Assembly (NCBI GenBank): GCA_903840385.1
Contig: CAIMFT010000105.1
Coordinates: 1 to 64,000 of the forward strand
DNA length: 64,000 nucleotides
Direction: 5' to 3'
From: an uncultured Holophagaceae bacterium
GTDB lineage: Bacteria > Acidobacteriota > Holophagae > Holophagales > Holophagaceae
In this document: one piece after another, positions 5,638 through 53,242 of the stretch
Position numbering within the stretch: position 1 is the stretch's first letter
How the letters are laid out: each line of letters starts with the position of its first letter
Made by a program: the position numbers and the translations under genes
Notes under the pieces: generated by a model
Seen by the model: only the letters and a program-made list of their open reading frames with translations
The model's database searches: none
What the model was told of the DNA's origin: nothing

Positions 5638-6974
5638 GGCGTTCCCCCCACCAGCACGCGGTGCAGGCGGCGCAGGGCTTCGGAGGTGCTCTCCTGCTTC
5701 ACCACCAGGCTGAGGTTGATCTCATTGGCACCCATGCTGATCATCTCGACGTTGATGTCACCCAGGGAGCTGAGCAGCTGAGCGCCCACACCAGGGGTGG
5801 ACTTCAGGCGCTCACCCACAGCGGCGATGATGGCCCGGCCTTCGTGGACCTCCACCTTGGCGAAGACCGAGAGGTCCTGGAGCAGGGCCTTGAGGGGCAC
5901 GTCGGCTTCCACGGTGAGGGACACGCTGACCTCGGCGGTGGCCACCAGATCCACGCTGACCTCCCGGCGCCCGAACACCTCGAAGAGCCGCGCCAGGAAG
6001 CCGCTCTGGGCGAGCATCCGGGAGCTGCTCACAGTGAGCACCGTGACCGGGCCCCGGCTGGCGAGGGCGGTGATGGGGCGGCCCGTCTGCACCTCGGCAG
6101 AGATCGTCGTGAAGCGTCCCTCCGGCTTCTGGGTGTGGCGGACGGTCACCGGGATGCCGGCCTCCACCGCAGGCTGGATGGTGGCGGGGTGGAGCACCTT
6201 GGCCCCGAAGGCCGCCAGCTCCGCAGCCTCGGCAAAGCTCAGGTCGGAGATGGGCAGGGCCTCGGGCACGATGCGGGGGTCGCAGGTGAGCACACCCTCC
6301 ACGTCGGTCCAGATCTGCACCTCCTCCGCCCCCAGCGCAGCCCCGAAGAGCGCCGCAGAGTAGTCGCTGCCCCCCCGACCCAGGGTGGTGGTGAGGCCAC
6401 TCTCGGTGGCGCCGATGTAGCCCTGGGTCACCACGGCCCGACCCGGCCCCAGGTGGGGGGCAAGGTAGCGCGCCGCCAGCTCGCGGACGGCCTCGGGCTG
6501 AGGAGCGCCTTCGCCGAACACCGCATCGGTGCGCATCACCGTGCGGGCATCCACCCAGACGCCCTCCATGTAGGCGGCGAAGATCCGCGTGGACAGCCGC
6601 TCGCCCAGGGAGGCGATGGCGTCCATGCTCCGGGGGCTCAGCTCCCGCAGCATGCCCACGCCCTTCAGCAGCAGCTCCAGCTCACCGAACAGCTCGGCGA
6701 TGGCTGCCTCCAGGGCTTCGGGGGGGGCGCCATCAAACAGCTCGATGGCGGCCTTGCGATGGGCGGCCAGGAGGGTGCGGTGGCGGTCCAGGGCGAGGGG
6801 GAGGTCGCCGGCCTCGGCGGCCTTGGCGGCATCAAAGAGGCCGTTGGTGGTCTTGCCCATGGCGGAGAGCACCACCAGGGGCGAGCGGGGCAGGGCTGCG
6901 CCCACCAGGAACGCCACCTGGCGCATGCACGCTGCGTCTGCGACGCTGCTGCCGCCGAACTTGAGGACGATCAT
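5634..6974 (-). CDS. lysC: aspartate kinase, monofunctional with C-terminal ACT domains
   Basis: 446 residues. Kinase domain with the N-terminal KFGGSSVADAACMRQV, the glycine-rich GRGGSDYSAALFG, and EVQIWTDVEGVLTCDPR. The C-terminal ~150 residues (VTVLTVSSSRMLAQSGFL and VGVNINMIS-like GDINVEMISMG) look like paired ACT domains. It is closest in style to lysine-sensitive LysC/aspartokinase III, which supports feedback inhibition by lysine in addition to the riboswitch control of the transcript. It phosphorylates aspartate, feeding the asd gene just upstream in the same operon. No homoserine dehydrogenase fusion is present. Confidence 0.95.
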   Translation of the reverse strand: MIVLKFGGSSVADAACMRQVAFLVGAALPRSPLVVLSAMGKTTNGLFDAAKAAEAGDLPLALDRHRTLLAAHRKAAIELFDGAPPEALEAAIAELFGELELLLKGVGMLRELSPRSMDAIASLGERLSTRIFAAYMEGVWVDARTVMRTDAVFGEGAPQPEAVRELAARYLAPHLGPGRAVVTQGYIGATESGLTTTLGRGGSDYSAALFGAALGAEEVQIWTDVEGVLTCDPRIVPEALPISDLSFAEAAELAAFGAKVLHPATIQPAVEAGIPVTVRHTQKPEGRFTTISAEVQTGRPITALASRGPVTVLTVSSSRMLAQSGFLARLFEVFGRREVSVDLVATAEVSVSLTVEADVPLKALLQDLSVFAKVEVHEGRAIIAAVGERLKSTPGVGAQLLSSLGDINVEMISMGANEINLSLVVKQESTSEALRRLHRVLVGGTP

Positions 6975-8026
6975 CGGAGGTATCCCTTCGCGTGGGCCAG
7001 CTCGGCGTTGAGGATGCTGCCACCGGCGGCACCGCGCTCAGTGTTGTGGCCCAGCAGGGCGAACTTGATGCCGAGGATGGGGCAGACCCGCAGGCGGCCC
7101 ACATGGACACTCATGCCACCATCCACTTCCACGTCCCGGCGCACCTGGGGACGATCCTCCAGGGTGTGCACGTGGACCGGGACGGCCGGGGCGGAGAAGA
7201 GGCCCAGGCGCTGGGGCTCGGGCCGCCAGTTCAGCCAGGCATCGCGCACCGCCTCCAGGGAGGGGTTACCCTTGAGCTTCACGCTCACGGCCTCGGTGTG
7301 GCCCTCGATGACAGGCACCCGGTGGCAGAGGGCGCTCACGACCATGGCTGCGTGCTCAACGGAGTCGCCCGTCCAGCGGCCCAGCATCTTGGGGGTCTCC
7401 TCCTCGACCTTGGGCTCCTCGTTGCGGATGAAGGGGATCACGTTGCCCATGATGTCGAGGCTGGGGACGCCCGGGTACCCGGCGCCGCTGATGGCCTGCA
7501 TGGAGGTCATCATCACGGCCTCGATGCCGAAGGCCTCGTGCAGCGGGGCCAGGGCCATCACCAGCACGGTGGCCGTGCAGTTGGCGTTGGTCACGATGCC
7601 CCCGGTCCAGCCGTGGTGGTGGCGCTGGATCTTCAGCAGGCCCAGGTGGTCGGCATTGACCTCGGGCACCAGCAGGGGCACCTCGGGGGACATGCGGAAG
7701 GCGCCAGCGTTGGAGAACACCAGGGCACCGGCCTTGGCGAACTGGGGCTCCAGCTCCAGGGCGGGAGCGGTGTCCAGGGCGCTGAAGACCACCGGGGACA
7801 GGGCGAACTCCGGCGTGCCGTCGGCCATGATCTGGTCGCCCAGACCGCCGTAGGGCTCACCATCCAGGCGCCAGGCACAGGCATCCCGGTAGCGCTTGCC
7901 AGCGCTGCGCTCGCTGGCGGCGAGGTGCTCAACCCGGAAGAGGGGGTGGTTGGCCAGGCGCCGCACAAAGCGCTGGCCGACGACGCCGGTGGCGCCGAGA
8001 ACGGTGACGGGAATCTTGGTGGTCAT
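6971..8026 (-). CDS. asd: aspartate-semialdehyde dehydrogenase, archaeal/fungal-type subfamily
   Basis: 351 residues. N-terminal NADP-binding motif VTVLGATGVVGQRFV; catalytic Cys in IVTNANCTATVLVMALAPL; substrate-binding region SGAGYPGVPSLDIMGNVIPF; a downstream His in VPVIEGHTEAVSV. The spacing and the long insert (NEEPKVEEETPKML) resemble the Asd form common in archaea and fungi rather than the E. coli or Bacillus type. It reduces aspartyl phosphate to the semialdehyde used by DapA. It begins 3 bases after the dapE stop and overlaps lysC as ATGA. A second, degenerate Asd-like gene lies at 21519-22346. Confidence 0.95.
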   Translation of the reverse strand: MTTKIPVTVLGATGVVGQRFVRRLANHPLFRVEHLAASERSAGKRYRDACAWRLDGEPYGGLGDQIMADGTPEFALSPVVFSALDTAPALELEPQFAKAGALVFSNAGAFRMSPEVPLLVPEVNADHLGLLKIQRHHHGWTGGIVTNANCTATVLVMALAPLHEAFGIEAVMMTSMQAISGAGYPGVPSLDIMGNVIPFIRNEEPKVEEETPKMLGRWTGDSVEHAAMVVSALCHRVPVIEGHTEAVSVKLKGNPSLEAVRDAWLNWRPEPQRLGLFSAPAVPVHVHTLEDRPQVRRDVEVDGGMSVHVGRLRVCPILGIKFALLGHNTERGAAGGSILNAELAHAKGYLR

Positions 8027-19797: not shown

Positions 19798-19841
19798 AGC
19801 CATCTATTATGGCTGTTACGGGGAGCCTTGGGGAAAAGGCT
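19798..19841. other. two tandem short hairpins in the kimA-lipA divergent gap
   Basis: The 293-bp gap between kimA and lipA contains no gene. AGCCAT-CTATT-ATGGCT (19798-19814) and AGCCTT-GGGGAA-AAGGCT (19824-19841) are perfect 6-bp stems placed 9 bases apart. They could be leader structure for either gene; a CATAAT-like -10 sits in the first stem on the minus strand. No known riboswitch consensus was recognised. Confidence 0.45.
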
Positions 19842-19954
19842 TGAGGGCTGGGACAAGGAATTTTTCCCTTTTTTTGCCCCCGCTTGAGCTTGGGGGGGCA
19901 CAGGGGCTGTCCGCCACCCCTCCCCTGCGAGAGACTGGAACCCCAGGAGCCTGC

Positions 19955-20866
19955 ATGCCCCGATATGCCCGCCGTGTTGGCCGCGAAGTCCTGGAAGGGC
20001 ATCCCCGGCTCCCGCCCTGGATTGCCCAGGAGCGCGTGCGCCTCGGCGACCTCCATCGCATGAAGACCGACCTGCGAACCTCGGGTCTGCACACGGTGTG
20101 CGAGGAGGCCCGCTGCCCCAACCGCACCCACTGCTTCACCCTGGGCACCGCCACCTTCCTGCTCATGGGGGGCGTCTGCACCCGGGCCTGCGGATTCTGC
20201 AGCATCCAGAGCGGGCAACCCAAGGCGCTGAACCCCCTGGAGCCCCAGGAGACCGCCGAGCGTGTGGCGGCGCTGAACCTCCGCTTCGCCGTGCTCACCT
20301 CGGTGAACCGGGATGACCTGCCGGACGGCGGGGCGGCCCACTTCGCCGAGACCATCCTGGCCATCCGCCGCCGCAACCCGGGCGTCGGCGTGGAGGTGCT
20401 GGTGCCGGACTTCCTCGGTGACCTGGAGGCCGTGGCCCGCGTGGTCGCTGCCGGTCCCGAGGTGTTCAACCACAACACCGAGACCGTTCCCAGCCTGTAC
20501 AAGGAGGTACGGCCTGCGGGGCGCTTCGAGCGCAGCCTGGCTGTGCTCCGCCACGCCAAAACCCTGGGCACCGCTCTCTACGGCCCCGGCTTCCGCACCA
20601 AGAGCGGCCTCATGCTGGGCCTCGGTGAGACCGAGGCGGAGCTGTTGACCACCTTCCAGGCTCTCGTGGCGGTCGGCGTGGACATCCTCACCCTGGGCCA
20701 GTACCTGCGGCCCACGCGCCACCAGCTGCCCGTGAAGCGCTATGTCCCCCCGGAGGAATTCGAGGCCCTGGCTGAGCAGGCCCGGGTCCTGGGCTTCCGC
20801 ACCGTCCACGCCGGCCCCATGGTGCGCTCCAGTTACCACGCCGAAGAGGTGGCAGCCCAGGGCTGA
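19955..20866 (+). CDS. lipA: lipoyl synthase
   Basis: 303 residues from the ATG at 19955 with a CAGGAG site; the track start is too long. Radical-SAM enzyme with two clusters: auxiliary-cluster cysteines in CEEARCPNRTHC and the SAM cluster in CTRACGFC. Also seen: TATFLLMGG, LTSVNRDDLPDGG, FNHNTETVPSLY, TKSGLMLGLGE, LTLGQYLRPT and the C-terminal RSSYHAEE. It inserts two sulfurs into octanoyl groups on lipoyl domains. No lipB neighbour. Its stop and the stop of the convergent ferredoxin gene abut within a 14-bp palindrome (GGGCTGATCAGCCC). Confidence 0.97.
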   Translation: MPRYARRVGREVLEGHPRLPPWIAQERVRLGDLHRMKTDLRTSGLHTVCEEARCPNRTHCFTLGTATFLLMGGVCTRACGFCSIQSGQPKALNPLEPQETAERVAALNLRFAVLTSVNRDDLPDGGAAHFAETILAIRRRNPGVGVEVLVPDFLGDLEAVARVVAAGPEVFNHNTETVPSLYKEVRPAGRFERSLAVLRHAKTLGTALYGPGFRTKSGLMLGLGETEAELLTTFQALVAVGVDILTLGQYLRPTRHQLPVKRYVPPEEFEALAEQARVLGFRTVHAGPMVRSSYHAEEVAAQG

Positions 20867-21514
20867 TCAGCCCCGGCGGGGCTCCACCACGATGGCTGCG
20901 GGCTCCGAAGGACAAGCAAAGACACACAGGCCGCACCCTGTACAGAACGCGCTGTCCACCACGGGATGACCATAGGGCTCACCTTCTCCGGGGGGCGCCA
21001 GGCGCAGGGCCTCGTCGGGGTAGGGGCAGCGGTCCACGCAGATGCGGCAGTCCCGGGGCTCCCGGTCCAGGGTGCCCCAGGTGACACAGAGGGCTGGCTT
21101 CACCCGGGCAGTACCCATGCGCACAGCCTTGGGCCCTTCCAACACCGTGCCATCGGCACGGACCAGCCGGGGCCAGATCAGAGCATTGTCCTCACACTCC
21201 GCGATGCAGGGCAGGGTGGTGCAGAGGAAGCAGGGGATGGCGCGGGGGTCGATGTAGGGGGTCCGCAGGGCCAGGCCCGCCGTGGCGGGTGCCTTGAGGA
21301 TGGCGTTCTCGGGACAGGCCCGGATGCACTTGTCGCAGCGGGTGCACTGGGTGAGAAACTCGAACTCGTCCAGGGCACCAGGCGGGCGCAGCAGCTTCGG
21401 CCCCAGGCTGGTCACGGCATCGTCCACCCGATTGGCCACGAACCCGGCAAACAAAGTCCCCAGGGACTTGAAGAAGTCCCCGCGCTCCTGGGGTTCGTCG
21501 AGCTTCTTCGCCAT
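20867..21514 (-). CDS. multi-cluster 4Fe-4S ferredoxin-type protein (NapG/MauM-like)
   Basis: 215 residues with several cysteine clusters: CTRCDKCIRACP, then CFLCTTLPCIAEC, CVTW...CRICVDRCP and CTGCGLCVFACP, enough for up to four 4Fe-4S centres in the order typical of NapG/MauM quinol-linked ferredoxins. There is no N-terminal signal or Tat motif, so it should be cytoplasmic. Electron partners are unknown. It is 4 bases downstream of the Asd-like gene and probably in one operon with it, an unusual pairing. Confidence 0.8.
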   Translation of the reverse strand: MAKKLDEPQERGDFFKSLGTLFAGFVANRVDDAVTSLGPKLLRPPGALDEFEFLTQCTRCDKCIRACPENAILKAPATAGLALRTPYIDPRAIPCFLCTTLPCIAECEDNALIWPRLVRADGTVLEGPKAVRMGTARVKPALCVTWGTLDREPRDCRICVDRCPYPDEALRLAPPGEGEPYGHPVVDSAFCTGCGLCVFACPSEPAAIVVEPRRG

Positions 21515-21518
21515 GGGC

Positions 21519-22346
21519 CTACATCAGCCCCAGGACTCGCAAGGCGGGCCAGAGGGTGCCCCACAGCACGGGGTCGAAGCCCAGGGTCAGCACCGCCGCC
21601 CGGCCGTCCGCCGTGAGCTCCGCGTGGGCCAGGAGCTCGGGGCTCACCGCCACCTCCCGGGAGCTGGGTGGGGCCCCCACCCACTTCACGCCGGTGGGGG
21701 CGTCCTTCTTGGCCAGGGCGGCCCCATCCTGGGCCCGCACCTGGAGCACCAGCAGGTCGCCATGGAAGGAGGGGATGCGGATCTCCAGCAGGCGGCCCTT
21801 GCCGACCACAGGAGGGACCGGCACCATCTCGAAGGCCTGCCGGTAGCCCAGCAGTTTCTCGTCGGGATCCTCGCCGTTGAGGACGGACAAGGTCTGCGCC
21901 ACCAGGCCATCCAGGCCCCGGTCGCCGAGCCACGCAATGGAACGGAGGTGAACACCGCCCACCTCGCCCACGTTGCTGAGCAGGGACGGCACCTGGGCCA
22001 GCACCTGCTCCAGAGCGGGTCGCCCCCGCAGGATCCGTGCGCCGGCGGGCCAAGCACCAGCCAGGGGCAGGGGCTCTGCCGCCGGATCAGGCTCGGGGCG
22101 GAGGTCCAGGATTCGTCCAGGGAAGGCCGACACCAGGCCTGGGTCCGGGGTCGCCACCAGGATCACCACATCCATGCCCTCCAGCAGGGCAGGGTCGGGG
22201 GCGAAGACCACCAGGTCGCCCTCCTCCTCGGCCACGGTGAGGGCACCGACTGACAGGGGTACCACCGAGGCATCGCGGGCCTCGAGGGCACCCACCAACT
22301 CCCGGCCCAAAAGTGTCTGGGCACCGATTACGGCGAGTTTCAACAT
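21519..22346 (-). CDS. degenerate aspartate-semialdehyde dehydrogenase-like protein lacking the catalytic cysteine
   Basis: 275 residues from the ATG at 22346 (SD GAGGGG); the track TTG start adds five residues. The N-terminal Rossmann motif LAVIGAQTLLGRELVGALEAR and the C-terminal IRIPSFHGDLLVLQV segment resemble Asd/USG-1 proteins (compare VRVPVFRGH in true Asd). The expected NxNC(T/S) active-site motif is replaced by SLLSNVGEVGGVHL, and the protein from the preferred start has no Cys. Enzymatic activity is thus unlikely. A role as a scaffold or partner of the downstream Fe-S protein is speculation. Confidence 0.7.
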   Translation of the reverse strand: MLKLAVIGAQTLLGRELVGALEARDASVVPLSVGALTVAEEEGDLVVFAPDPALLEGMDVVILVATPDPGLVSAFPGRILDLRPEPDPAAEPLPLAGAWPAGARILRGRPALEQVLAQVPSLLSNVGEVGGVHLRSIAWLGDRGLDGLVAQTLSVLNGEDPDEKLLGYRQAFEMVPVPPVVGKGRLLEIRIPSFHGDLLVLQVRAQDGAALAKKDAPTGVKWVGAPPSSREVAVSPELLAHAELTADGRAAVLTLGFDPVLWGTLWPALRVLGLM

Positions 22347-22389: not shown

Positions 22390-23841
22390 CTACACCCGCA
22401 CTGGGGCTGAGTCTGCGGGTACATGGTCCTGAAGCGCCTGGGCTACGGGGCCCGCGAGGAACTGGCGCACCTGCTCACCGGCCCGGCCCGTGAAGCGGTT
22501 GGCATCCAGCAGGGTGGTGAGCTCGGCTTCGGTCATGGCCCAGGCGGGATCGGCCGCCAGCAGGGTGAGCAGCTCGTTGGGACGCCCCTCCGCCTTGATG
22601 CGGTGGCCGGCTTCCAGCGCAGACAGCCGGAAGCGCTCGTGCAGGTCCTGGCGGTCGCCGCCCCGCTTCACAGCCTCCATGAGCAGGACCTCGGCGGCCA
22701 TGAAGGGCAGCTCCTGGGCGAGGCGGGCCTCGATCATCCGGGGGTAGACCACCAGGCCGGAGGCGACGTTGCGGCAGAGCACGAGGATGGCGTCCACGGC
22801 CATGAGGCCCTGGCTGAGGGTGAGGCGGCGGTGGGCGCTGTCATCCAGGGTCCGCTCCATCCACTGCGTGGCGCTGGTCTGGTAGGTGGAGGGCATAAGG
22901 CCGAGGACAAAGCGGGCCAGGCTGTTGATGCGCTCCGAGCGCATGGGGTTGCGCTTGTAGGGCATGGCGCTGGAGCCGATCTGCTGGGCCTCGAAGGGCT
23001 CCTCCACCTCCTTGAGGTGCTGGAGCAGGCGCATGTCACAGGCGAACTTGGAGGCCGAGGCGGCGATGCCACAGAGCACCTGACCGATGCGGTCCTCCAG
23101 CTTGCGAGTGGCCGTCTGGCCCGAGACAGGGATGGCCGGGAAGCCCACCTTGGCGCAGAAGCGCAACTCCAGGGCCTCCACCTTGGCGCCGTCGCCGTCG
23201 AACAGCTCCAGGAAGCTGGCCTGGGTGCCCGTGGTGCCCTTGATGCCGCGCACCGGGGTGGTGCGCACCAGGTGGTCCAGGTCCTCCAGGTCCAGGAGCA
23301 GGTCCTGGATCCAGAGGCAGGCCCGCTTACCAACGGTGGTGGGCTGGGCGGGCTGGAAGTGGGTGAAGCCCAGGGTTGCCTGGTCCTGCCACTGGGCCGC
23401 AAAGACCCCCAGAGCGGCGATCAGGTCCTGGATGCGCCGCCGCAGCAGGCCCAGGGCCTCCTGCGCGATGAGGAGGTCGCCGTTGTCGGTGACAAAGCAG
23501 CTGGTCGCGCCGAGGTGGATCACAGGACGGGCGCCCGGGGCCTGCTCGCCCCAGGCGTGGATGGCGGCCATGACGTCATGGCGCAGGGCGGCCTCGTGGC
23601 GGGCAATGGTGGGCAGGTCCACCGCATCCTGGGTGGCGCGCAGCTCCTGGAGCTGGGCTGCCGTGATGGGCAGGCCCAGTTCGGCCTCGGCCTCCGCCAG
23701 GGCGACCCAGAGCCGCCGCCAGACGCGCTGTCGGTAGAGGGGAGAGAGCAGCCGCACCATGGCCTTGCTGGCGTAGCGACTGGCCAGGGGGTGCTCGAAG
23801 CGCTCCAGCTCGGGGCCCTCGTGGGGGGGAAGGAAGGACAT
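22390..23841 (-). CDS. purB: adenylosuccinate lyase
   Basis: 483 residues from the ATG at 23841 ([15 protein letters not shown]); the 940-residue track ORF reads through the divergent glyA region and is an artefact. Fumarase/aspartase superfamily motifs: [30 protein letters not shown] with the catalytic His, and the flexible signature loop [17 protein letters not shown]. It acts twice in purine synthesis (SAICAR and adenylosuccinate cleavage). Divergent from glyA across a 117-bp gap; both feed purine/one-carbon metabolism, so shared control is plausible, but no PurR-like operator is seen. Confidence 0.96.
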
Positions 23842-23958
23842 GGGAACTCCGTGCCTCCAGTGTCGCATGGCCGCAGGACTGTGATCCCGCTCACGAAGAG
23901 GGCCCATTTGCAGCGACTGGCCGCGGCTAGGATAGGGGCATCCCTGGGAGTCCTCGCC

Positions 23959-48843: not shown

Positions 48844-51800
48844 TTACCAGGCGAAGTTTTGGGTCTTGGTGGTACCGGCAACGCCCATCACGATGTTGTC
48901 GAATTGCTGGGAGGGGCTGTTCCCGGGATTGGCGACAACGCGGGTGAGGGTAATCCCTGCGGGCAGGGTGACCGTGTAGGAGCCATCAGACTTGGTGCGG
49001 GTATTGACCAGCTTGGAGCTGCCAGCGGTGCTACCATACCGGACCTGGACCATGATGTTGGGGCGTCCCAGAGGGGGCGTGCTCGTGTCGCGGACATAGC
49101 CGGTCAGGATGGCCCCATCGGGGAGGGTGACGGTCCCCAGGTCCAGGCTGGCGGCCGAGGGGTCTGGTGAAATAAGGTTCGTAGCGGCGCTGATGGCAAT
49201 AGCGGCTCCGGTCTGGGTCCCGTTGTAGGCAGAGGAACCGAAGAACTCGTTGGTGTAGACCGAGAAGCCCAACTTCACGGTCTGGGCGGGGGTTGTTGTG
49301 TACATTTCCAGGATGCCTTCAGAGTTGGAGATCTCCTGGCTCAGTCCATTCCAGGTGGTTCCATCGTAGACGTAGAGATCGCCCCGGGCCTGGCTGATGG
49401 GATGGTTGCCGGAGTCCACCAGCTTCAGGGTGATCTTGCCCACAGAGGCGCTAAAGTTCTGAACCACGTCGTCGACGCCTGCATTGAGTGGGGGGGTCGT
49501 GGACTGGCCTCGGCAGAGGGCATTGTAGCTGCCGGGTTGGAGCCACAGGCGGTACTGACCGTCCACATCGGTCCGGGTGCTCTCGGCTCCCGGCGTATTC
49601 AGGCCCGCGGTTGCGTCCTGAAAGCGGACCGGGATCCCGACCACCGGTGAGCCACCGCTGTTCGTTAACACGGTGCCCGAGATCTTGTGGCCCGGCCACA
49701 GCCTCATGCTGCCCCACTGGGTGCCTCCTGCTGTAACGGTGATCTTGGTGGCCTGGGTGCTGTTTTTGCCACCACCGGTACCCACAGGGGGGGTGTCCAT
49801 GAAGTTGGCAGAGCCATAGGGCACATAGCGGGTCTTGTTGCGGACGCTCACGTAGTAGGTCCCTGGGGCCACATTGAAGACGAAGGTGCCGTCGGGGCCA
49901 GTGCTGGCAGAAGCAAGGGTCTGGCCCGAGCCGAAATCGCAGAGGGCGATCTGCATGCCGGGGAGGGGCACATCGGTTGGAGTGGCTATGCCTGTGAGGC
50001 TCCCAGACAACCGTCCACCCGCTATCAGGGCGAAGTCCTTGGTCACCATGGCAGCGCTCACAGTGACCTTCCCGGCCTTGAACTGGCTGGAGACGGGCCC
50101 AGTGGCGGACCACCAGCCACTGGCGGCGAAGCTGGCGGTGCCCAGGTTCATGGCACCGACGACATAGTCGCCAGCGGGCACCCGGACCGTATAGGTGCCA
50201 TCTGCTGCGGTCTGCGTGACGCCCATGAGGGTGAGGCCGCCAAAGCTGCAGACCCCTACGCCAATCCCTGCCAGCGGCTCACCCGCCAGGTTCTTCACGG
50301 TGCCGGTGATGCCGAAGGGGGCGGCCAGGTTGGCCAGGGCGTTCTTCGATTCTTCATCTTGCGTCATGGCGATCTGAAGGGCCGTCAACATGGCGGAGGT
50401 TGTGAGTGCCGAGCTGGGGACGTTGCCCATGTTGCTGTACACGGTTCCCTGGATGGCGAGAACTGCGCCGTTGCCAAGGGACGCAAGGGTGCCTCCCCCG
50501 GTTGTGATGGAGGTCGTAACGAGACCAAAGGTTGCATGGGTGTAAGGATCGATGTTGTTGGCGGTGGTGCTGGTGACAAAGCTCAGGAGCGTAAAGGCGG
50601 GGGTGCTCCCATTGGCGGGGATCAGGGCCTGGACGGCGTGGCTGGGGCCAGGAACGAAGCCCGCTGGGGCCTGAAGGCTGTAGTTGCCGCTGGCATCCGT
50701 GAGGCAGGTGGCGATGACAGCGCCCACCTGGAGGCCGGCATTATCGATCTGGATGAGGTTGATGGTGATCCCGGCGCCCATGGGAGGTAGGGCTGTGGGG
50801 ATGGCAAATGATGCCGAGGCCAGAGATTCTTCCTGCGAACCCAACTTGGGGGACCGAATGGTTGCCGCAGGGCCCTCTGGAGCGGAGAGGTTGCCCGAGA
50901 TGGGAACCGGGGCAACCACTGTGGCGGTGATGCCGTAGGTCTTGGTGGGGTCGTCCACGGAGGTGGCGGTGATGGTGACGGTTCCGGCGGTGGCGGGGGC
51001 GGTCCAGGTGTTGCCGGACCAGGTACCCTGGCCGCTGGAGTCCCAGGTGACGGTGTTGGTGACGCCACCGGTAACGGTGGCTGTGAAGGCCTGGGTGTAG
51101 CCCGCCGTCACCGAGGGGGTGGCCGGGGTGATGCCTGTGAAGGCCACGGTCTGGGGAATGACGGACACGACGATGCTGGCGTCCCGGGCCCCGGCAGCGT
51201 TGGTGATGGTCAGGGTGTAGGCCCGAATGCCTGACCAGTCAGCGGTGATGGGGGCCGAGGGCAAACCAGAGGCTGGGCAGGCAATGGCAGGACCCGTGTT
51301 ACCGGCAATGCTGCCGACGCCGCCCTCATAGGTGGCCGTCAGGGTGAAGGTGGCCCCGTAGGCGGGGGAGGCCGTACTGGCTACAAAGCCGTACGCCACC
51401 GGGGCTGGGACGACCGTGACGGTGGCCGTGGTTGACACAGTGGAGCCCGCCGCATTGGTGACGGTGAGGGTGTAGGTGGTGGTGGCAGCAGGGGTGACGG
51501 TCTTGGCGGTGGCAGTGGTGACGACCCCCACGCTGTTGTCCACGGCGCCCGTGCCGTTGGTGAAGACGGGAGTGAGGGTGGTGCTGCTCCCGGCGGTGAT
51601 GGTGGCGGCGCCGGCGGCGAGGCTGGTGGCCACAGGGGCAGGAACCACGGTGACGGTGCAGGTAGCGACGGCAGTGCTACCCGCCGCGTTGGTGACAGTG
51701 AGGGTGTAGGTGGTGGTGGCAGCAGGGGTGACGGTCTTGGCGGTGGCGGTGGTCACGGTACCCACACTGTTGTTCACGGCCCCGGTGCCATTGGCAAAGA

Positions 51801-53172
51801 CGGCGGTGAGGGTGGTGCTGGCACCAGCCGTTAGGGTCGACTGGGCAGCGCTAAAGCTGCTGATGGCTGGGGCGGCCACGACGGTGACGGTGGTGGCGGC
51901 GGTCTTGCTGGTGTCATCCGAAGAGGTGGCGGTGATGGTGTAGGTGCCGGGCGTGGCCGGCGCCGTCCAGGTGCTGCCAGACCAGGTGCCCCCAGTGGAG
52001 GACCAGACCAGGGCGTTGGTGGCCCCGCCCGTGGCGGTGGTGGAGAAGGCTTGGGTCGCGCCAACGGTGACGGTGGGTGCCCCTGCGGTAAAGGCCGCAA
52101 CAGCCACAGTCTGAGGAGTGACGGCTGTGGTGGCGGTTGCTGTGGTGCCGGCAGCATTGGTGACGGTCAGGGTGTAGGTGCGGGCACCACTCCAGTTGGC
52201 CGCGATGGCCCCGGAGGCCACGCCCGTGGGGGGGCAGGCGACAGTGTTGCTGAGGGTGCCGGTGCCGTTGGCGTAGGTGGGCGTCAAGGTAAAGGTGGTG
52301 CCATAGGCCGGGGTCTGGGTGGAGGCCACGAGGCCGGTGGCCACCGGGGCGGCGACCGTTGTGACGGTGGTGGTGGTCTTGGCGCTGGGGTCATCGCTGG
52401 AGGTGGCCGTGATGGTGGCCGTCCCGACGGTGGCCGGGGCTGTCCAGACGCCACCGGAGGTGATGGTGCCGGCGGTGGCAGACCAGGTGACGGTGTTGGT
52501 GGCACCCCCGCTCACCAGGACACTGAAGGTCTTGGTGGTCCCGGTGGTGACCGTCGGGCTGCCAGGAGAGATGGTGCCGAGGCTCACGCCCACGGGGGTC
52601 AGGGTCAGGCTCTTGGTGGCCGTGGTCCCCAGGCTGTTGGTGACGGTGAGGGTGAAGGTCTTGGCGGCCGTGATGGGCCCCGAGCTGAAGGGGACGCCAT
52701 TGGTGACGACGCCGACTCCCTGGTCCACGCTTCCGGTGCCAGCACTGAAGGTTGGGGTGATGGTGGTGGAGCCGCCGTAGAGCTCTGGGTTCATGGTGGC
52801 CCAGAGGCTGGTGGCCACAGGGGCCGGCACCAGCGTCACGCGGGTGCTGGACTTGGCGACCATGCCAGCGGTGTTGATGACCGTGAGGATGTAGGTGGTG
52901 TCCGCCACAGGGGTGACACTGACGGGCGCTCCAGAGGCCACGGCGCCGACATCCTGGTCAATGGTGCCCGCCCCATTGGTGAAGGTGGCCACCAGGGTGG
53001 TGCTGGTACCGGCGGTGATGGGTGAGCGGGTGGCGGTGAAGTTGGCGATGAGGGGGGGAGGGGGCGCCGGGGTACCGCCACAGGCGACCAGAAGGAGCAG
53101 CCCCCCGAGTGCGGTCAGAAGGCCAAGGCCTGAGGCCAGCAAGCCCAAGCGAAGAGAGCGCACGCGACCCAT
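48844..53172 (-). CDS. large Ig-like-repeat lipoprotein
   Basis: 1442 residues from the ATG at 53172 (SD GGAGG); the track start is 18 codons too early. Lipoprotein signal with lipobox LLVAC (Cys31). Residues ~40-800 hold about nine bacterial Ig-like modules of ~75-85 residues in two types: one with TITAGSSTTLTPVFTNGTG and TTTYTLTVTNAAGS, another with VTWSS..GTWSGNTWTAPATAGTVTITATS. Modules 6 and 7 are nearly identical. The C-terminal half has several carboxypeptidase-regulatory-like segments (DASGNYSLQAPAG, AADGTYTVRVPAGDY, GPDGTFVFNVAPGTYYV, DVDGQYRLWLQPGSY, KSDGSYTVTLPAG). Probably an outer-surface protein for adhesion or polymer contact; the ligand is unknown. It stands alone between rsmB and gap. 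Confidence 0.88.
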   Translation of the reverse strand: MGRVRSLRLGLLASGLGLLTALGGLLLLVACGGTPAPPPPLIANFTATRSPITAGTSTTLVATFTNGAGTIDQDVGAVASGAPVSVTPVADTTYILTVINTAGMVAKSSTRVTLVPAPVATSLWATMNPELYGGSTTITPTFSAGTGSVDQGVGVVTNGVPFSSGPITAAKTFTLTVTNSLGTTATKSLTLTPVGVSLGTISPGSPTVTTGTTKTFSVLVSGGATNTVTWSATAGTITSGGVWTAPATVGTATITATSSDDPSAKTTTTVTTVAAPVATGLVASTQTPAYGTTFTLTPTYANGTGTLSNTVACPPTGVASGAIAANWSGARTYTLTVTNAAGTTATATTAVTPQTVAVAAFTAGAPTVTVGATQAFSTTATGGATNALVWSSTGGTWSGSTWTAPATPGTYTITATSSDDTSKTAATTVTVVAAPAISSFSAAQSTLTAGASTTLTAVFANGTGAVNNSVGTVTTATAKTVTPAATTTYTLTVTNAAGSTAVATCTVTVVPAPVATSLAAGAATITAGSSTTLTPVFTNGTGAVDNSVGVVTTATAKTVTPAATTTYTLTVTNAAGSTVSTTATVTVVPAPVAYGFVASTASPAYGATFTLTATYEGGVGSIAGNTGPAIACPASGLPSAPITADWSGIRAYTLTITNAAGARDASIVVSVIPQTVAFTGITPATPSVTAGYTQAFTATVTGGVTNTVTWDSSGQGTWSGNTWTAPATAGTVTITATSVDDPTKTYGITATVVAPVPISGNLSAPEGPAATIRSPKLGSQEESLASASFAIPTALPPMGAGITINLIQIDNAGLQVGAVIATCLTDASGNYSLQAPAGFVPGPSHAVQALIPANGSTPAFTLLSFVTSTTANNIDPYTHATFGLVTTSITTGGGTLASLGNGAVLAIQGTVYSNMGNVPSSALTTSAMLTALQIAMTQDEESKNALANLAAPFGITGTVKNLAGEPLAGIGVGVCSFGGLTLMGVTQTAADGTYTVRVPAGDYVVGAMNLGTASFAASGWWSATGPVSSQFKAGKVTVSAAMVTKDFALIAGGRLSGSLTGIATPTDVPLPGMQIALCDFGSGQTLASASTGPDGTFVFNVAPGTYYVSVRNKTRYVPYGSANFMDTPPVGTGGGKNSTQATKITVTAGGTQWGSMRLWPGHKISGTVLTNSGGSPVVGIPVRFQDATAGLNTPGAESTRTDVDGQYRLWLQPGSYNALCRGQSTTPPLNAGVDDVVQNFSASVGKITLKLVDSGNHPISQARGDLYVYDGTTWNGLSQEISNSEGILEMYTTTPAQTVKLGFSVYTNEFFGSSAYNGTQTGAAIAISAATNLISPDPSAASLDLGTVTLPDGAILTGYVRDTSTPPLGRPNIMVQVRYGSTAGSSKLVNTRTKSDGSYTVTLPAGITLTRVVANPGNSPSQQFDNIVMGVAGTTKTQNFAW
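51476..51943 (-). repeat. tandem 234-bp coding repeat in the Ig lipoprotein gene
   Basis: Two adjacent 234-bp units are nearly the same at DNA level (for example TGACGGTCTTGGCGGTGG at about 51496 and 51730). They encode consecutive Ig modules and explain the two equal-length antisense ORFs in the track. High DNA identity suggests recent duplication. Confidence 0.8.
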
Positions 53173-53214
53173 ACAGCCTCCAGGGCGCCAAAAAACCAAT
53201 GGCGGATGTTGAGT

Positions 53215-53242
53215 TGTATAGGTCATTCGGTTATTGGTGCAA
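53215..53242 (-). promoter_or_regulatory. probable promoter of the Ig-repeat lipoprotein gene
   Basis: Read leftward: TTGCAC, 16 bases, TATACA, about 43 bases before the ATG, in an AT-rich patch. It is the best sigma-70-like match in the 319-bp gap 53173-53491, which otherwise holds no gene besides the gap terminator. Confidence 0.5.

Follow-up and report, generated by a model that had tools for sequence, protein, structure and literature searches.

AsdL, the product of a gene that lies next to a polyferredoxin gene (Fdx) in Holophagaceae, is a shortened and fast-evolved member, specific to that family, of a clade of Asd/USG-1-like pseudoenzymes found throughout the Acidobacteriota. Sequence comparison, profile searches, a structural model and a phylogenetic tree all support this assignment. 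The protein is probably a dead enzyme that no longer carries out aspartate-semialdehyde reduction, and we tentatively favor the view that it serves the cytoplasmic Fdx as a non-catalytic partner or helps to assemble it.

The window, i.e. the whole stretch of 64,000 nucleotides that was analysed, derives from a soil or sediment bacterium with a Geothrix-type Holophagaceae genome; the relatives found are Geothrix and other Holophagaceae, of the phylum Acidobacteriota. AsdL is located upstream of Fdx with a spacing of 4 bp, and 43 bp separate it from purB, which lies upstream of AsdL and, in most Holophagaceae, is part of its transcription unit (Table 1). The short AsdL-Fdx spacing and the conserved linkage suggest that the two genes are co-transcribed; a promoter scan gave no signal above chance. 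The ATG start of AsdL (22346) is conserved in relatives. The window also carries dnaN, gyrB and the gyrA region, and a run of lysine-synthesis genes that includes a true Asd, which the first-pass annotation had placed correctly at 6971. The names dapA, dapB, lysC, dnaN and gyrB were assigned from sequence only. Elsewhere in the window (48844-53226, minus strand), a 1460-aa open reading frame has a lipoprotein-like start, LLLLVACGG.

Table 1. Positions and properties of the genes discussed, numbered along the window.
Feature	Coordinates	Strand	Description
AsdL	21519..22346	-	275 aa, Cys-less; Asd/USG-1 fold, catalytic residues lost
Fdx	20867..21514	-	215 aa, cytoplasmic; NapG/MauM-like polyferredoxin with four tetra-Cys motifs (16 invariant Cys)
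purB, adenylosuccinate lyase	22390..23895	-	Stop codon at 22390; start position approximate
lipA, lipoyl synthase	19841..20866	+	Convergent neighbour of Fdx
True Asd, EA type	6971..8026	-	NANC active site; in a dapA-dapB-lysC-asd run

As a single sequence, AsdL had no match in Pfam or in the PDB, and its best NCBIfam result was a marginal one to PRK05671 (Asd/USG-1; E = 0.011). The family as a whole is more informative. PRK05671 is matched by 23 of the 24 AsdL family members (best E = 3e-5), and a profile of the family finds four Asd/USG-1 chains in the PDB at 2e-5 to 2e-4. The AlphaFold2 model of AsdL (pLDDT 83.7, pTM 0.77; weak at residues 171-173 and 181-193) has as its top structural match the USG-1 protein of Pseudomonas aeruginosa, 2hjs (6.3e-13, probability 1.00), after which many Asd structures rank. 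The TM-scores are moderate (0.69) and the rmsd is high (7.8), values that fit two domains set at another angle and a deleted segment in AsdL. Judging from the model and from profile-profile matches to Usg and Asd, the protein combines a Rossmann domain with an Asd-type dimerisation domain, the fold of the Asd/USG-1 superfamily. Profile comparison thus places it in Asd/USG-1, as had been supposed at first pass, and not in an unrelated family. Its scores fall far below the curated cut-offs for USG-1/Usg (15.2 of 284 bits for PRK05671 and 11.6 of 273 bits for PRK08040). A match of 52 residues in Candidatus Methanodesulfokora (L034, E = 1e-4) was dismissed as chance.

To compare the active-site columns, AsdL was aligned to the Asd of E. 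coli and to true AsdB and AsdEA; residue numbers are those of E. coli. The column of the catalytic Cys135 is occupied by Pro, Ala, Ser or Gln in the 24 AsdL homologues, none of which has an NxNC-type motif, and the AsdL of the window contains no Cys anywhere. Gln162 is replaced by Arg (by Cys or Ser in two members) and His274 by Asp or Glu, and the segment of the catalytic-domain insert that bears Glu241 and Lys244 is deleted. Arg267 is retained in most homologues, is Lys in g3 and has been lost in g2. Thus, the catalytic and substrate residues Gln162, Glu241, Lys244, Arg267 and His274 do not survive as a set, and the catalytic Cys, Gln, Glu, Lys and His are gone from 24 of 24 homologues. Fold and domain order are shared with true Asd (asd_B, asd_EA and E. 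coli Asd), but all five of Cys135, Gln162, Glu241, Lys244 and His274 are missing from AsdL, whereas the genome's true Asd keeps every one of these catalytic residues. The first-pass annotation of 20867-22346, which had described an Asd-like product with a lost NxNC active site, was correct on this point.

Its further claim, that the Rossmann start is kept, stands for the fold alone. The dinucleotide loop of AsdL is degenerate, reading GAQTLLG where Asd has GATGxxG, and no GxxGxxG pattern is present. The first and last Gly of the loop (G8 and G14) are invariant, and the middle one has become Thr, Ser, Asp or Ala in all 24 homologues. Further, the segment of Asd that contacts the 2'-phosphate of NADP does not align with AsdL.

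In its losses AsdL resembles the USG-1/Usg proteins (P. aeruginosa 2hjs; E. coli usg, b2319), which have the Asd fold but neither the catalytic Cys nor the Gln; E. coli Usg has Ser and Ile in these columns. Both kinds of gene reside in housekeeping operons, Usg with truA/pdxB in E. coli and AsdL with Fdx instead of truA. The differences are nonetheless considerable. Usg is about 336 aa long, as opposed to the 275 of AsdL, and retains GATGxVG; the E. coli protein also keeps Glu241 and His274, whereas AsdL lacks the Glu241/Lys244 segment and has Asp in the His274 column. A literature search on USG-1 with Asd and on Asd pseudoenzymes found no paper. In Proteus and Aeromonas (L141, L142), chromosomal usg and asd are found on "plasmid" records of 4-5 Mb that are probably chromosomes.

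Outside Holophagaceae, the family profile (A1) gave only weak matches, in other Acidobacteriota. These were first taken as ordinary Asd; on full reading, nearly all proved to be without the catalytic Cys. They are proteins of 330-370 aa in which NxNC is replaced by NPHP, APHP, SPQP and similar sequences, the single exception among the members read being L133, whose PHC motif contains a Cys. At E <= 1e-10, a profile of this long family has matches in 122 of 297 genomes, a tally that includes any true Asd matches and is therefore an upper bound. The long family matches AsdL at 1.7e-20 in profile comparison, and the tabulated member of its alignment (A3) lies below all NCBIfam Asd cut-offs. In the tree, AsdL and the long Acidobacteriota proteins group together (100/100), apart from E. 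coli Usg and true Asd, and the nearest outsider is a USG-1-like protein of P. aeruginosa (95/94). The closest long relative of AsdL is L165 (96/92), although the Holophagaceae branch is long (2.95) and its exact placement unsure. The long proteins thus share with AsdL a common clade and the loss of the Cys, but they retain the C-terminal insert that AsdL has lost.

The genes for the long proteins have a neighbourhood of their own that is conserved across the phylum: they repeatedly adjoin DUF465 together with msbA/yicC/gmk/coaBC or pssA/psd (L148-L167), and at the loci examined they were never seen beside Fdx. Conversely, genomes of a sister family (f3) have Fdx homologues but no AsdL; in three of them (L119:5710-6987, L169 and L170) a class I/II aminotransferase gene precedes the Fdx homologue. 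In L119, likely 2-oxoacid:ferredoxin oxidoreductase genes are also nearby. Because AsdL relatives elsewhere sit in other loci and Fdx homologues occur without AsdL, the pairing is specific to Holophagaceae, and this separate occurrence implies that the two genes probably existed before they were brought together.

Fdx is closest to NapG (3.8e-33), then to the MauM/NapG model TIGR00397 (1.8e-24, residues 24-213) and to NapF (1e-9), scoring below the curated cut-offs for the first two (115 of 269 bits for NapG and 86.5 of 178.9 bits for TIGR00397). Its 16 Cys form four tetra-Cys motifs in the order of NapG and are invariant in 23 homologues, and an RPPGAL leader precedes the first cluster; the motifs and the leader are common to NapG/MauM and NapF. 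The N-terminus has one conserved Arg (R11), in R-G-x-F-F-K-S-L-G. A twin-arginine pair is not conserved among the homologues, and the open frame upstream allows only about three more residues; Fdx therefore has no export signal. Hence it is cytoplasmic like NapF, yet nearer in sequence to NapG, from which it differs in having no Tat signal. The R-G-x-F-F-K-S-L-G segment looks like the remnant of one. The first-pass description of a partner with four Cys clusters and no export signal is borne out in both respects. The predicted structure of Fdx is of very low confidence (pLDDT 43). Neither a NapH nor a NapA gene lies beside Fdx.

AsdL is present in 70 of the 77 family genomes (46 of the 48 good ones) and in all 11 genera, and Fdx stands beside it at every family locus examined whose contig extends far enough; rhodopsin-bearing genomes of 1.2 Mb are among the carriers of the pair. 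In two genomes with completeness of at least 94% (G022, G035), both genes seemed to have been lost together, but purB is missing there too, so that the absence is an assembly gap and no evidence of co-loss. The gene order permease-lipA-fdx-asdL-purB-glyA-gyrA is identical in Geothrix and g2 and is therefore probably ancestral. Around the pair, this order has frayed. Of the 9 testable genera outside Geothrix, 8 no longer have lipA next to fdx. In g3 purB has moved away and in g11 no purB adjoins the pair, yet AsdL-Fdx is retained in both. In g11, a TMP-TENI (ThiE/TenI-like) gene replaces purB directly upstream of AsdL (L077:3874-4482, L078:5360-6007, L079:5366-5932), overlapping the start of AsdL in L077 and L078. 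The pair is itself interrupted in g10 by a class I methyltransferase gene on the same strand (UbiE-like, 6e-19; L064:5141-6001), and its members are about 1.5 kb apart in g4. An extra few hundred bases separate the two genes at L004:6829-7181, L011:6832-7058 and L030:5720-6191. On the whole, the retention of AsdL-Fdx adjacency looks better than chance. Linkage elsewhere, whose absence the first-pass annotation would have taken as refutation, thus holds throughout the 11 Holophagaceae genera; outside the family neither gene requires the other.

Both genes are under purifying selection. The dN/dS of AsdL is 0.06-0.27 and that of Fdx 0.045-0.17, similar to purB, and approximately 60 columns of AsdL are invariant across 11 genera.

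The pair also persists in organisms in which the enzyme itself was not found. The g2 genomes are of 1.2 Mb, are 96-97% complete and encode rhodopsin; they match the description of Acidiparvus, a streamlined Holophagaceae genus unable to make most amino acids (PMC11561045). Neither EA-type nor bacterial Asd was found in them, nor in two g11 genomes, and AsdL-Fdx is kept in all of these. This retention shows that the role of AsdL is independent of Asd and its pathway, and AsdL would accordingly not be a regulator of aspartate-semialdehyde reduction. One Holophagaceae genome (G053) has two EA-type Asd genes (C4:265919-266962 and C1:318458-319504) with 73-74% identity to the Asd of the window.

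What, then, could AsdL do? The old dimerisation/active-site face of AsdL may bind Fdx, and AsdL might hold, load or position the polyferredoxin as a scaffold or as an assembly or regulatory subunit. Fdx, for its part, would be the donor, of electrons or of Fe-S clusters, for a housekeeping Fe-S enzyme presumably kept even in the 1.2-Mb relatives. The physical partnership and the donor role of Fdx are both inferred. A polyferredoxin acting via a binding partner has its precedent in NapF, a cytosolic four-cluster protein that binds NapA and helps to assemble its Fe-S cluster (review PMC10609526). We prefer the partner reading because the AsdL-Fdx adjacency outlives both fdx-lipA and purB-asdL, and because purifying selection on both genes, the loss of the catalytic residues and persistence without Asd all favor it. 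Against it are the separation of the genes in g10 and g4 and the existence, outside the family, of homologues of each without the other; also, genes that have nothing to do with each other can stay adjacent because they are expressed together. A more specific version, which we consider rather unlikely, is that a member of a phylum-specific class of Asd-fold pseudoenzymes was recruited in Holophagaceae as a subunit devoted to binding, loading or sensing the four-cluster Fdx, the two forming a module, kept even in streamlined genomes of 1.2 Mb, for Fe-S delivery or electron supply to an essential housekeeping enzyme.

It is quite conceivable, if somewhat doubtful, that the two proteins are neighbors that never touch: AsdL would keep an ancestral USG-like job and Fdx a separate redox job, with only expression shared with purB. 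The occurrence of each gene without the other beyond Holophagaceae, the several operons in which AsdL relatives are found (DUF465/msbA/yicC/gmk and pssA/psd) and the usual inclusion of purB in the AsdL-Fdx unit all count in favor of such an arrangement. It accounts less readily for the survival of the pair in g11, where purB has given way to the TenI-like gene, and in g3, where purB is displaced, or for its survival where fdx-lipA is mostly lost.

The first-pass annotation had proposed a nucleotide-binding redox unit. The Asd/USG-1 ancestry, the dead active site and the four-cluster partner that it invoked have held up; nucleotide binding has not, given the lost middle Gly and the unaligned 2'-phosphate segment. 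A direct path of electrons from NADPH through AsdL to Fdx is unlikely without a flavin to split the hydride into single electrons. Neither AsdL nor Fdx has a flavin site or domain, and it is chemically unlikely that the pair by itself transfers electrons. It is improbable, therefore, that AsdL has kept its binding of NAD(P)H and makes up, with Fdx, a unit for electron transfer or redox sensing, even though the Rossmann fold of the model, the invariant G8 and G14 and the four clusters of the partner would suit one. The deletion of the Glu241/Lys244 insert also speaks against it. In Salmonella, the usg operon is induced by H2O2 and required for oxidative resistance, which would speak for a redox role, but truA alone complemented the usg mutant (PMC6358828), so Usg need not be a redox factor.

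Nor is it probable, to an even lesser degree, that AsdL remains active through a new, cysteine-independent chemistry using R109, E113, R135, D197, S229-R230 and D258-W262. Conservation is indeed high among charged residues around the old active site, with R109, E113, S229, R230 and D258 invariant or nearly so in the 24 homologues. However, two g11 members have Cys or Ser in place of R135, one homologue has Glu for D197, the deletion removes part of the substrate site, and no pathway context fits. Finally, the near absence of family matches in single-sequence searches with AsdL could have signified a decaying pseudogene or a misread frame, a reading effectively eliminated by a gene that is intact in 70 of 77 genomes, its freedom from internal stops, its dN/dS of 0.06-0.27 and its confident predicted fold.

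The kind of protein that AsdL represents is already known, namely the USG-1-like pseudoenzymes; the Holophagaceae form is a new variant, and the phenomenon is somewhat larger than first described. The Asd look-alikes of this phylum, almost all without the catalytic Cys, would be annotated as Asd by homology, and reconstructions of the lysine, threonine and methionine pathways that count them would be wrong. AsdL may have a housekeeping role as a non-catalytic partner. Because it persists where no Asd was found, it provides a new setting in which to test what USG-1-type proteins do, a question of long standing, and its conserved polyferredoxin neighbor offers a concrete candidate partner for such a protein.
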